Assembly: GCF_037975215.1 (NCBI RefSeq)
Contig: NZ_CP150239.1
Location: 2,828,001-2,892,000, forward strand
DNA from: Solibacillus sp. FSL R5-0449
GTDB lineage: Bacteria > Bacillota > Bacilli > Bacillales_A > Planococcaceae
Length of the DNA stretch: 64,000 nucleotides
Direction of reading: 5' to 3'
In this document: piece after piece, positions 33,578-60,947 of the stretch
How positions within the stretch are numbered: position 1 is the stretch's first letter
Layout: every line of letters begins with the position of its first letter
Translations under genes and position numbers: made by a program
The notes under the pieces: model-generated
The model's input: only the letters and a program-made list of their open reading frames with translations
The model's database searches: none
Told to the model about the DNA's origin: nothing

Positions 33578-33602
33578 CATAGATTTCTGTTGAAATCGTA
33601 AG

Positions 33603-33629
33603 TATGGAGACGGTGGGAGTCGAACCCAC
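33603..33629 (-). repeat. Right attachment site within ssrA 3' end
   Basis: The 27-bp core identical to 14852-14878. Here it is part of the complete ssrA gene, so the element left a functional copy on this side. Confidence 0.88.
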
Positions 33630-33958
33630 GTCCAGAAGCTCCAATACGCCGGCTTCTACGCGTGTAGTTTGTCTACTTGCAATTCGCGAGTTCTTATGCC
33701 GACAAACAGGCGTCCGAATCGCTAACCTGGAAATCTCTTACCGTTGACTCAGGTGGTGCCAACGATCGTATCCCACTTAAGTTGAACCCAGCGTAGTCTA
33801 CATGGGCGATAGACAGGCTGAGTGCTACGCGCTATTAAGCTGCGAAAGCGAAGTTTTGTTGTTTGCCAGTTATTATATAACTTCCGTTGTTGACGAAGAC
33901 GAGACCTCCGACGCGCGACCAGAGCTTGAACCACCCCTGTCGAATCCGTAACGTCCCC
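33605..33958 (-). ncRNA. ssrA: Transfer-messenger RNA (tmRNA)
   Basis: About 354 nt. The 5' end GGGGACGTTACGGATTCGAC and the 3' end with the T-arm GTGGGTTCGACTCCCAC and terminal CCA are typical. The tag ORF at 33835-33867 reads GKQQNFAFAA followed by TAA, after the charged Ala; the ending FAFAA is the proteolysis tag recognised by ClpXP-type proteases. tmRNA rescues stalled ribosomes with SmpB, whose gene lies 0.7 kb upstream. It serves as integration site for the neighbouring island. Several pseudoknots follow in the body but were not modelled. Confidence 0.95.
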
Positions 33959-41927: not shown

Positions 41928-42982
41928 TTAGTTTTAGTTTTTTTTTGCTCTTCCCTGTCTCTTTTAAGAAATTATTTTTCTTCCGCGACGCGGGTGTGAG
42001 TTTTCTTACACTTGATACATTTGTGCCAATTTCATAGTGTTGCAGCTTTTTAAGGCTCCCCCATTTTTCAACCTTTGTCTGAAAAAGCATTCATTCCATA
42101 CATAGAAGCTTTGACCCATCGCTCTTAGCAAATTTCCTGTTCAACCTGCTGGTGAGCGATATAAGAAGTAGAATGTAACCATCATTATTAGAGATTTCAC
42201 TTCTCAGATTAAAGTGCATTAAATGCTAATGTTATCCTCCTTTGTATTTCACTTTTTCGACTATGAAAGTGGAACTAAACTCAGTATAGACCGTTCCAAA
42301 AATTTCCTCTCCCCTCCATCGGGTGATTTTTGGCAAATGCAAATTCTACTTTCGAACTTACCCAAAGGTATACTTTGGTGTTAGTCCATCTACTACCAAG
42401 TGGTTATGTATCGCTTACAAACTTTGATATACCAAAGTTTCTTTATGGCCCTATGTAGAAATCATTGCTTTCAACCTCTTCCATCCACTGCTAATTTAAC
42501 GAATTGTTCTTTTATTTTTTTATTGGATTTCCTCATAGTTCATATGACTTGCTCGCCCCTGCAACTTTTGCTGGTCAATTCCTACACGAATAGATAGTAA
42601 ACGACGAAATAAACCGTATGATTCCAAAAAAAGTTGTTTAGCTTTAATATAGAATGACAAAAAATGCCAATATATCTGCGTATAATAAGAAATAGTTTTT
42701 TACATTTTTTATTTTGAATTCAGAGTAACTTTGAACAAATTAATTTCAAATATTTTATATACTGTAAATTCCGCAGCCATAATTCTGAAAATTCCTTCTT
42801 TTTTCCTTCTAATAGATATACTACTTAATTACAGTAAAACCGTTTTACAATGGGAGACTTTGAAGTACATCCTTTAATTGGGCACCTTGGATGTATGGAG
42901 TCAGTGGTGCAACCGGCCTCACAACATTTGAAAACATTTGTTAAGAGCACTCTTTTTATTTGAGTGAGGAGGCAGTTTATTG
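41928..42982. promoter_or_regulatory. 1-kb regulatory region between tasA and the LuxR regulator
   Basis: No gene is supported in this stretch. It contains two related inverted repeats: CCAAAG-GTATA-CTTTGG at 42362-42378 and AAACTTTG-ATATAC-CAAAGTTT at 42419-42440, plausible operators. A stem CCAAAAAT / ATTTTTGG spans about 42295-42333. On the plus strand the leader of the LuxR gene (42855-42900) can form GTACATCC / GGATGTAT nested in GACT / AGTC. The tasA promoter itself was not pinned down. Confidence 0.45.
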
Positions 42983-48873: not shown

Positions 48874-49025
48874 AATGAAATAGCCTCCTTTGGTGTATGC
48901 TTTATGTTTCCCCGATTTATAAAAGAAAAACATCTTTTGTAATTTTCACCGCAAAAAGTTATTTTCAGGCATTGTATTTTCTTCTCGATTTATATTCGCT
49001 ATAGTGAAAGGAGGAGGTGAAAATC

Positions 49026-49955
49026 TTGCAGCAATCAAGGCATTATTTATTTGTCAAAACATTGTTGAACCGCATGAAAATGGATGATTTGGACGCACCG
49101 GCAATCGAGCAGGAATTTTACCGGTTGGAGGCCGGCTTATCGGGCGAACAGAAGTTGAAAAGGTTACTCTCGGACTATCATTTCAAATCCGCTTCCCATA
49201 TTTTTTATAATTTCGAATGCATCAATTCAAAAGGTTTTACCCATCAAATGGACGCTTTGCTCATTACGTCGCACTTTGTTGTCGTCATGGAAGTGAAACA
49301 AATGTCCGGCACCCTATTTTACAAACCCGCTCTCCATGAATTTTCCCGCGTCCATGAAAATGTCACTGAAAACTTCCCGAACCCGTTTGATCAGGCATAC
49401 CGCCACCAGCTTTTTTTGGAGCATCAATTGAAAGCGTGGCAAATTTCCATCCCCGTTTACCACATCGTCGTGCTTGCCAATCACCGCGCAACACTCGACC
49501 ATTCCCTTTCCAATTTTCCGATTATGCATATAAGCGGCATCCCGAGATTTATCGAAAAACTGTATCGGCAGCATCCGAACCCTCGTGCAAATATTACTTT
49601 TCTGCAAAACCAATTAGAGCAGCTTTACGAACAGCTCCCCCCTCGCCGGACAATTGAAAGGCACCGGCTACGTAATGGTGTTCTTTGTAAGGAGTGCGAT
49701 TATGCGAATGAAATGCATTACAGGCAAGGCTACTTTACTTGTCCTGTTTGCGGAGTGAAAAGTAAAGACGCGTTGTTCGAAACTTTTCTGCAATACCGAA
49801 TTTTAGTCGGCCCTCGTATAACAAATAAAGAGTTCCGTGAGTTTTTTAATATTTCGTGTATCCACACCGCTTCGAAACTGTTGGGGAAAGCCGGTTTGGA
49901 AAAGCATGGGGTAAATAAAGGAACGTATTATATGATTCCGGAGAAGTTTGAGTAA
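49026..49955 (+). CDS. NERD-domain protein
   Basis: About 309 residues from the TTG at 49026, 6-7 bases after GGAGGTG. The NERD nuclease-like domain occupies residues 25-150: GLSGEQKLKRLL, THQMDALLITSHFVVVMEVKQ (Asp and ExK), then FDQAYRHQLFLEHQL. Near residue 220 a four-Cys zinc ribbon appears (CKECDYANEMHYRQGYF, CPVCG). The end resembles an HTH (FREFFNISCIHTASKLLGKA). NERD proteins are thought to be nucleases or nucleic-acid-binding; substrate unknown. Confidence 0.85.
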   Translation: MQQSRHYLFVKTLLNRMKMDDLDAPAIEQEFYRLEAGLSGEQKLKRLLSDYHFKSASHIFYNFECINSKGFTHQMDALLITSHFVVVMEVKQMSGTLFYKPALHEFSRVHENVTENFPNPFDQAYRHQLFLEHQLKAWQISIPVYHIVVLANHRATLDHSLSNFPIMHISGIPRFIEKLYRQHPNPRANITFLQNQLEQLYEQLPPRRTIERHRLRNGVLCKECDYANEMHYRQGYFTCPVCGVKSKDALFETFLQYRILVGPRITNKEFREFFNISCIHTASKLLGKAGLEKHGVNKGTYYMIPEKFE

Positions 49956-49985: not shown

Positions 49986-50228
49986 ATGAAGGAAAAACAA
50001 AGCAAGCGCATTATGAAATCCGTTGCAGAAGAAGATACACAGGTTGCAGATATTGCCGGGCGTTATGATGTCGGTCCTTCAACGGTAAATGAACACCGCG
50101 ACTCGCTGGTCCCCGCAAGCGAAGCAGAAAAAATTAAGTCTGCGTACGAAAAGAAAATACGTGCACTGGAAGTAGAAAATGAGATTTTGAGAAAAGCGAT
50201 TCGAGGAATTTCGGACATTGAGCGGTAG
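49986..50228 (+). CDS. Small transposase-like HTH protein (IS3 OrfA-type)
   Basis: About 80 residues from the ATG at 49986 (GTGGAG upstream); 49956 is an alternative start directly after the previous stop. The N-terminal HTH (MKSVAEEDTQVADIAGRYDV) and C-terminal leucine-zipper helix (KKIRALEVENEILRKAIRGI) resemble IS3-family OrfA. No OrfB, inverted repeats or target duplication is visible, so it is a relic or a domesticated regulator. It follows the NERD gene without a gap. Confidence 0.65.
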   Translation: MKEKQSKRIMKSVAEEDTQVADIAGRYDVGPSTVNEHRDSLVPASEAEKIKSAYEKKIRALEVENEILRKAIRGISDIER

Positions 50229-50283: not shown

Positions 50284-50672
50284 TTCTAATAAATCCTGAA
50301 AAGTTCTAATATAAATTTATTTGTTCTAATAAAATGCCGATCTTCTAATATAATTGCGGTTTATTCTAATAAGTGTTCCAGATGTTCAAATAAAGCATCT
50401 ACTTCTTCTAATATCGTGTCGCCATCTTCTAATAAACCACTCGATTGTTCTAATAAAATCCTAGCACGCCCTCTCCATGCGCTTTTCACCGGGAAAATAA
50501 GCTTTCCCCCACCTCATATTCACGGAACTTCTAATATCTATTCTAGTTCTTCTAATATGTCCTCCATTTCTTCTAATAACTGACTCAATTGTTCTAATAA
50601 AATCCCGTCATCCTACTCGCCCCCAAATTCTCGGACCTTCTAATGACCCCCGCAGTTCTTCTATTCTAATAA
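50284..50672 (-). repeat. Array A of TTCTAATA repeats with ~21-bp period
   Basis: At least fourteen copies of TTCTAATA, mostly 20-21 bases apart, in two blocks (50284-50460 and 50529-50672). Read on the minus strand each copy is TATTAGAA and gives a heptad (I/L)LExxxx, e.g. LLEQLSQLLEEMEDILEELE, but stops break the frame and no start or ribosome-binding site is present. A closely similar copy is at 52597-52915. It lies downstream of the MFS gene terminator. Confidence 0.85.
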
Positions 50673-52596: not shown

Positions 52597-52915
52597 TTCT
52601 AATATATCCTGAAAAGTTCTAATATAAATTTATTTGTTCTAATAAAATGCCGATCTTCTAATATAAATGCGGTTTGTTCTAATAAGTGTTTCAGATGTTC
52701 AAATAAAGTGTCTGCTTCTTCTAATATCGTGCCGCCATCTTCTAATAAACCTCTCCAATGTTCTAATAAAACCCCGGCACGCCCTCTCTACACGCTTTTC
52801 ACCAGGAAAATAAGCTTTCTCCCACCTCAAATTCACAGAACTTCTAATATCTCATCCGGTTCTTCTAATATCCCCCACACTTCTTCTAATAAACGCTCCA
52901 TTTCTTCTAATAAAC
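52597..52915 (-). repeat. Array B of TTCTAATA repeats, near-copy of array A
   Basis: About thirteen copies of TTCTAATA or close variants in two blocks, with the same inter-repeat text as array A over most of its length (for example GAAAAGTTCTAATATAAATT and AAAATGCCGATCTTCTAATA occur in both). Minus-strand reading gives GLLEEMERLLEEVWGILEE and a longer open run VLLEHWRGLLEDGGTILEE. It lies between the MFS promoter region and the eno terminator. Confidence 0.85.
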
Positions 52916-60503: not shown

Positions 60504-60737
60504 CTAGTCCACCAGCGCCTCGTACAACGTCGCATAATCAAGCTGCCCATATTGAATAACGTCCCCGTTATACTCCACAACCGGAATCATCAGCATATAT
60601 TTTTCATGCGCTTCATCGTCTTCTTCTATATTATAGTGCTCAATCGTAAAGTCGATATCTTCCTGTACGATTTTTAATGTATGGAGCCCTTCGATGCAAA
60701 GTCCGCAGTCCGGTTTCGAATAATATTTGATGATCAT
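60504..60737 (-). CDS. Glutaredoxin-family thioredoxin-fold protein
   Basis: 77 residues from the ATG behind AGGGAGG; the longer frame is repeat-derived and lacks a site. The start MIIKYYSKPDCGLCIEGLHT has a CxxC redox motif (Cys-Gly-Leu-Cys, residues 11-14), and the cis-Pro is in MIPVVEYNGD. It is the size of small glutaredoxin-like proteins (DUF836 type). It is a likely cytoplasmic thiol-disulphide protein with an unknown partner. Confidence 0.85.
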   Translation of the reverse strand: MIIKYYSKPDCGLCIEGLHTLKIVQEDIDFTIEHYNIEEDDEAHEKYMLMIPVVEYNGDVIQYGQLDYATLYEALVD

Positions 60738-60805
60738 TGGCAGTTCCTCCCTTTTTTTATTATTATAGCGGAGTTTGGGTGGAGTGGGTGGTGTGCGCCG
60801 GGATT

Positions 60806-60947
60806 TTATTAGAAGATTTTTTGGTTTATTAGAAGGTTCGGTTGCGGTATTAGAAGTTTGCGGTTGTTTATTAGAACAATCCGACAACTTATTAGAAAAT
60901 CGGCACCTCGTTCTCATCTTCAGAACATCTCTCCACCTTATTAGAAA
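60806..60947 (+). repeat. Array C of TATTAGAA repeats, inverted relative to arrays A and B
   Basis: Six copies of TATTAGAA about 20-21 bases apart, then a degenerate pair near the end. The plus-strand reading gives GLLEGSVAVLEVCGCLLEQ, the same heptad (L/V)LExxxx as on the minus strand of the other arrays. The array is between the glutaredoxin-like gene and the TPM protein terminator, not inside a gene. Confidence 0.75.

Follow-up and report, generated by a model that had tools for sequence, protein, structure and literature searches.

Helically phased arrays of an 8-bp word beside a NERD-domain gene in Solibacillus, a dispersed intergenic repeat family with a predicted binding protein

The window analysed here is a 64-kb stretch (2,828,001–2,892,000) of the one-contig genome of Solibacillus sp. 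FSL R5-0449, which has 3,582,823 bases with dnaA at position 331; feature positions below are those of the window. The gene NERD-A (49017..49955, + strand; putative GTG start) codes for a 312-aa protein with a NERD domain, a four-cysteine zinc ribbon, and a C-terminal winged helix. To its right lies array A (50284–50671, + strand), containing 13 exact copies of the core word TTCTAATA at intervals of 20, 20, 19, 21, 21, 21, 21, 21, 81, 21, 21, 21, and 72 bp. These fall into block I (50284..50455, +), with nine cores in steps of 20, 20, 19, 21, 21, 21, 21, and 21 bp, of which the sixth (at 50385) is TTCAAATA; an inter-block gap (50456..50528, +) of 81 bp core to core; block II (50529..50599, +), with four cores in three steps of 21 bp; and a final exact core (50664..50671, +) 72 bp beyond the preceding one. 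Between the NERD gene and array A is a small ORF (49986–50228, +) that by eye has the look of an IS3 OrfA-type helix-turn-helix protein.

Two further arrays are present in the window. Array B (52597..52912, +), separated from the 3′ end of the enolase gene by 64 bp, shares both layout and spacers with array A, its intervals being those of array A through to its own end; it has 12 exact cores and one TTCAAATA. Array C (60807..60946, − strand) has six exact cores and lies 66 bp after a gene for a TPM-domain protein. It overlaps the start of a 137-aa ORF (60504–60946) that has a glutaredoxin-like domain from residue 66, and the true start of this ORF is probably downstream of the array. Rfam identifies a tmRNA gene (33602–33958, −) and a c-di-GMP-II riboswitch (42844–42927, +) elsewhere in the window, and gives no match at the arrays.

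Exact TTCTAATA occurs 40 times in the window (13 in array A, 12 in B, 6 in C, and 9 elsewhere) against 5.3 expected, and the highest count among 100 dinucleotide shuffles of the window is 11. The whole genome contains 203 pairs of the form TTCTAATA-N13-TTCTAATA and none of the same pattern read backwards. The phased array that an earlier note on this DNA had described is thus real; of the two outcomes that the note had named as refuting it, a lack of excess in related genomes and a spacing like that of shuffled sequence, we found neither.

The element of which array A is one copy is dispersed, oriented, and intergenic. A common plan is recognizable in 69 arrays from this and related genomes: block I has nine cores at 20/21, 20, 19, 21, 21, 21, 21, and 20/21 bp, and is followed, often after a gap, by block II with four cores in 21-bp steps. 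A scan for block I finds 61 copies. The sixth core is frequently TTCAAATA, and may also be TTCGAATA, GTCTAATA, or TGCTAATA; otherwise the constant part is the 8-bp core, and the spacers vary between copies. The largest array has 32 cores. With G000 denoting this genome and the other G numbers genomes compared with it, TTCTAATA pairs are present in 11 of 16 Solibacillus genomes and in 0 of 25 genomes of other genera, and a three-core search matches 13 of 261 genomes of the family, these being the 11 Solibacillus and two Ureibacillus (U. acetophenoni and U. manganicus). The TTCTAATA arrays at two U. manganicus loci (L089 and L099) are built of tandem 103-bp higher-order units (21, 21, 21, and 40 bp), with five such units in one array.

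Alignment of orthologous arrays separates the cores clearly from what lies between them. We compared 18 of the 24 G000–G003 pairs with two matching flanks (excluding six with core numbers more than 1.4-fold apart) and all 16 such G000–G007 pairs. Core identity is 98.2% with G003 and 97.9% with G007, spacer identity 80.2% and 79.7%, interior-gap identity 74% and 77%, and identity in the 150-bp flanks 86–90%; within the 21-bp unit identity drops to about 70% in mid-spacer. The words are therefore under constraint, and the spacers much less so. In the G003 set only 11 of the 4,726 bases in cores and spacers fail to align, compared with 9–10% of flank bases; in the G007 set differences in the extent of some arrays bring the unaligned share to 289 of 3,774 (7.7%), as high as in the flanks (6.6 and 9.5%). 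Core number is unequal in 16 of the 24 G000–G003 pairs, and hence arrays gain and lose units.

The gaps between blocks are mostly 81 or 82 bp, and the others cluster near 40, 50, 60, 71, and 101 bp, with a few elsewhere. When the 81/82-bp class is set aside, the best period for the remaining gaps (n=56, Solibacillus loci with orthologs included; 2.5–40 bp scanned) is 10.5 bp (R=0.73); at 3 bp R is 0.14, and at 21 bp it is 0.18. This genome alone (n=19) gives R=0.70 at 10.5 bp, and its best period is near 10.7 bp. This periodicity points to double-stranded DNA with the sites on one face. Phased protein binding, one of the possibilities raised in the earlier note, is thus supported by the conserved cores, the few indels in one species pair, and gaps that follow 10.5 bp.

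The only Pfam domain found in NERD-A is NERD (PF08378; 60.4 bits against a gathering cut-off of 22.1). Among 42 aligned NERD proteins the four cysteines are invariant; D79 is present in 41, E92 in 38 (with D in three others), and K94 in 41, with one gap at each position, and we infer these three to be catalytic residues. The predicted structure (pLDDT 93) has a C-terminal winged helix with a putative recognition helix at residues 282–291. Structure comparison gives weak hits, several of them to PD-(D/E)XK nucleases and none at E≤0.001, and by sequence no PDB entry is closer than E=0.15. Searches of plasmid and phage collections reveal no homolog at E≤1e-5. NERD-A matches no defence model above its cut-off, and a described defence system is therefore rejected: the matches to PADLOC PglW (E=0.00026 over 80 residues) and to NCBIfam MADS6 (25 bits, cut-off 460) are both partial and fall far short of the cut-offs.

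Arrays adjoin NERD genes well beyond this window, a link between array and neighbouring gene that the earlier note had not drawn. In G001 and G015, each with two arrays among the matches listed, one array starts 23–28 bp after the NERD-A homolog. When 400 kb from two genomes lacking TTCTAATA pairs were scanned blind, the G002 stretch having been picked so as to contain its NERD-A homolog, a single 21-bp chain was found; it lies beside that homolog and has the word GGCTAGTT. In a first survey of 50 NERD loci (two genes entering twice), 38 have at least five equal 6-mers in steps of 18–22 bp, single skips being permitted. Control steps of 13–17 and 23–27 bp give 0, and a third control (28–32/58–63 bp) gives 12 but is confounded, as 63 is three times 21. 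Among the best 30 loci of a class-wide survey (four seen before) 27 have chains of at least four and 16 of at least five, with 0/30 for each of the controls at 13–17 and 23–27 bp; a further 20 loci (three seen before) have chains of at least four in 15 cases, again with both controls at 0. Chains were found in none of 138 random 2.5-kb segments of G011 and G002, and in 3 of the 40 outer ends of the last twenty loci. NERD loci in which no array was found number 3/50 (no chain of four), 3/30, and 5/20 in the three sets. Most loci of this gene examined in Bacilli thus adjoin a phased array with its own word, and the NERD-zinc ribbon-winged helix family is widespread in the class. Across the class, 68 of 398 genomes have a homolog at E≤1e-25; any NERD homolog at all is found in 235 of 261 genomes of the family, and mere presence of NERD therefore does not predict arrays.

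Across Solibacillus genomes the dispersed words for the most part match the protein that is present. The word TTCTACTTT, associated with a NERD-A paralog, forms 45 pairs in G000, 48 in G007, 37 in G008, 31 in G012, 23 in G005, and 15 in G004, the six genomes with that paralog; among those without it G003 has 1 and nine others have 0. Each of the nine genomes in which NERD-A has an ortholog (the G008 copy being broken) contains pairs of TTCTAATA, as do two of the seven in which the search finds no ortholog (G012 with 72 and G013 with 13). G002, whose homolog is 58% identical, has no TTCTAATA pairs and 68 GGCTAKTW pairs of the GGCTAGTT and GGCTATTA types. In Ureibacillus no reader of TTCTAATA was found: the NERD genes examined there, three of the eight or more in G260 and two of the seven in G250, have other words or none. 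Two TTCTACTTT arrays of G000 (L373 and L374, near 697 and 756 kb) contain TTCTAATA cores too, as if shared by two readers.

The words also vary with the protein segment that would contact them. For 32 of the 42 aligned proteins (after exclusion of seven near-duplicates and of three lacking a clear word) word distance was compared with the distance of protein segments, with the rest of the protein removed; the words were registered by hand and relatedness is controlled only in part. The partial correlation peaks at residues 286–293 (r=0.69) and 282–289 (r=0.63), reaches up to 0.5 in other C-terminal windows, and is lowest in NERD-domain and N-terminal windows; for four helix residues alone it is modest (partial r=0.24, p=0.0035). 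Word differences thus track the predicted recognition helix. Five proteins have Arg at the second helix position, and the words of all five begin with CG, which none of the words of the other 27 does; outside this set L407 and L426 fit the rule and L404 (GGCTCATAA) does not. Asp at the third helix position, where an array was found, goes with GCG in the word in 6/6 cases (L268, L275, L390, L391, L392, and L416), and GCG is present without Asp at L407. Locus L316, from the family of the window, and L426, from family f59, encode proteins only 30% identical that have the helix motif SRH and the word CGAGCATAA in common; L318, 78% identical to L316, has CGAGCATAA upstream and CGCACGCAA downstream.

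We consider it likely that array A is a multi-site binding array, and that the protein predicted to bind it is most probably the adjacent NERD-zinc ribbon-winged helix protein. The C-terminal recognition helix would read the 8–9 bp core, and cores two turns apart on one helix face could be occupied side by side to form an oriented nucleoprotein array. In Solibacillus such arrays have multiplied to dozens of intergenic places, most often at gene 3′ ends. The PD-(D/E)XK-like NERD domain presumably acts on DNA at or near the arrays, and its activity may both have spread them and drive the gain and loss of units, in a manner reminiscent of REPIN-RAYT systems with an unrelated enzyme. Several results speak against this reading: G012 and G013 have TTCTAATA pairs but no NERD-A ortholog in the search, no TTCTAATA reader turned up among the Ureibacillus genes examined, one of five G003 places keeps its TTCTACTTT cores, L318 has a different word on each side, some NERD loci have no array found, and in the G007 comparison array bases fail to align as often as flank bases.

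In another reading the arrays serve the host chromosome, for example as 3′-end insulators, transcription roadblocks, or nucleoid anchors, the NERD proteins being house-keeping binders in which the nuclease fold is a minor matter; we give this some chance of being correct. With the arrays read in TTCTAATA orientation and genes taken from simple longest-ORF calls, 52 of 69 arrays face the 3′ end of the gene to their right, and only 6 of 69 lie between divergent genes; the cores are conserved at fixed places, and there is a modest excess in the origin half of the chromosome (31 of 45 in a hand tally among the matches listed). All of this would suit a chromosomal role, but the words vary from species to species and from paralog to paralog, TTCTAATA arrays are absent from five genomes of the genus, and the putative catalytic residues are nearly invariant. 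Where both neighbours are co-directional one orientation prevails, by 30 to 11 over all loci including orthologs (p=0.004) and by 18 to 8 when this genome is taken by itself (p=0.08). No strand bias with respect to replication is clear by eye in the position lists, and a dif pattern has no match in five genomes. G003 has 16 DnaA-domain matches, many of them short, repeated, and DnaA-like, which are probably insertion-sequence helper ATPases. At L160 in G001 a TTCTAATA array is followed after about 100 bp by a gene that by eye resembles an ArsR regulator, and a similar array is present at G013:C1:1441498.

Arrays in the family of the window are mostly downstream of the NERD gene, and in other families often upstream, sometimes on both sides. 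The upstream arrays commonly start 180–440 bp before the gene, with a few at 630–830 bp, and since they are so often in this position they may autoregulate it. Four GTTGTC words in array-like steps form a weak chain that begins 341 bp before NERD-A itself (L386), and is perhaps an old array or chance. The many upstream arrays among the class loci would also be expected if all arrays were operators, and remnants of operators, of an ordinary family of autoregulated transcription factors with the dispersed copies as its regulon. This is unlikely, as the dispersed arrays mostly keep away from divergent promoters and lie at 3′ ends, and a single array can have up to 32 cores.

A bolder proposal, and in our estimation a distinctly improbable one, is that paralogous word-reading nucleases are spread throughout the Bacilli, each recognizing a DNA word of its own that is determined by one short helix. 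Phased arrays would then mark self, an out-of-phase or foreign word being cut or processed, or the arrays could be programmed break-and-repair sites.

The earlier note had also suggested a mobile repeat. The dispersal that this implies is evident, but not the signs of insertion: for 24 arrays of this genome the corresponding place in G003 also has an array, no clean empty site is seen in 25 G000–G003 pairings, and no target duplication was found at the arrays compared. One array (L119) has no exact core in G003, and one G002 array sits where G000 has none, with indistinct borders; no in-place switch of word between G000 and G002 is seen in 18 overlapping G002 loci. MITEs and insertion sequences are recognized by terminal inverted repeats, target duplications, and empty sites. 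That the arrays are a selfish non-autonomous element of an unrelated transposase (of MITE or Tn7-end type), only indirectly linked to NERD, seems highly unlikely to us; such an element could account for the dozens of copies, the shared layout and spacers of A and B, and the modular number of units, but not for cores conserved at fixed places, nor for words that track the NERD helix.

There is next to no probability that the arrays are decayed coding repeats for Leu-Leu-Glu heptads, as the earlier note had entertained since 21 bp is seven codons and the minus strand does give heptads over short stretches, or a structured RNA: the recurrent intervals of 20, 20, 19, 40, 71, and 82 bp break the frame, a 3-base rhythm was looked for in the spacer substitutions of the ortholog alignments and is absent, and array A shows no excess folding relative to shuffles (z is −0.19 when the + strand is folded as DNA and +0.24 when the − strand is folded as RNA), with no Rfam match. 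The gap lengths follow the 10.5-bp turn of DNA and not codons, so these are most likely arrays for protein binding rather than decayed heptad genes.

Several known systems have features in common with the proposed binding arrays. Iterons, ParR/parC centromeres, and the TnsB sites at Tn7 ends are rows of direct repeats about two turns apart that are bound by one protein; unlike these, the arrays described here are dispersed over the chromosome with only the core conserved, and no replication, partition, or transposase gene was noticed beside array A. CRISPR arrays have long identical repeats, unique spacers, and cas genes; here only the 8-bp core is constant, and Pfam finds no Cas protein among seven window proteins near the arrays.

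Marine Beggiatoaceae have many sets of intergenic TAACTGA direct repeats, for which a repeat-binding protein has been proposed (PMC4679880). These are likewise short, intergenic, and direct, but have another word in other bacteria, and the passages of that paper on the repeats identify no binding protein and discuss roles in translation (PMC4679880). The closest parallel is with the REP repeats and REP-associated tyrosine transposases of REPIN-RAYT systems (PMC3116915), in which a single-copy chromosomal gene likewise has repeats of its own kind beside it, each paralog with its own, and dispersed extragenic copies (PMC3116915). Both the repeat beside the gene and the dispersed, mainly extragenic copies (by simple ORF calls) are found here. 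However, the enzyme has a PD-(D/E)XK-like NERD domain, zinc ribbon, and winged helix with no tyrosine transposase (Pfam gives NERD only, and the weak structural hits are to other proteins), and the repeat consists not of a palindrome pair but of short non-palindromic cores in helical phase, array A showing no excess folding. The NERD arrays thus resemble REPIN-RAYT in logic, and we do not file them there because enzyme and repeat fail its defining features. The literature within the search, which most subscription journals fall outside, yielded no description of these arrays or of their link to NERD genes, and the arrays with their NERD gene look like an undescribed gene-plus-repeat system of Bacilli. 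A protein architecture that is common in Bacilli but uncharacterised is thereby connected with its probable DNA targets, and with dozens of natural protein–word pairs a recognition code could be derived. It would be a second, unrelated case of a gene with dispersed repeats beside REPIN-RAYT, and host retention of such repeats therefore becomes testable in another lineage.

Natural losses in G003, G008, and G012 serve as experiments. In G012, with no NERD-A found, the TTCTAATA cores at 10 places, chosen for an intact triple, are 95–100% identical to their orthologs; mismatches per array exceed those in four other genomes (p 0.0004–0.017), with 3 of the 10 arrays carrying the difference. These results lean against decay of the arrays, and G012 may reflect a recent loss of NERD-A, an assembly gap, or another keeper of the word. 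G003 lacks the TTCTACTTT gene, and since the arrays lie near the paralog in G007 we infer the difference to be a loss in G003. Seven G000 places were examined there, and at the five aligned on both flanks G003 has 1, 2, 0, 1, and 0 exact TTCTACTTT cores versus 4, 2, 2, 7, and 4 in G000. At four of the five most cores are gone, leaving degenerate remnants, and the fifth keeps both of its two exact cores.
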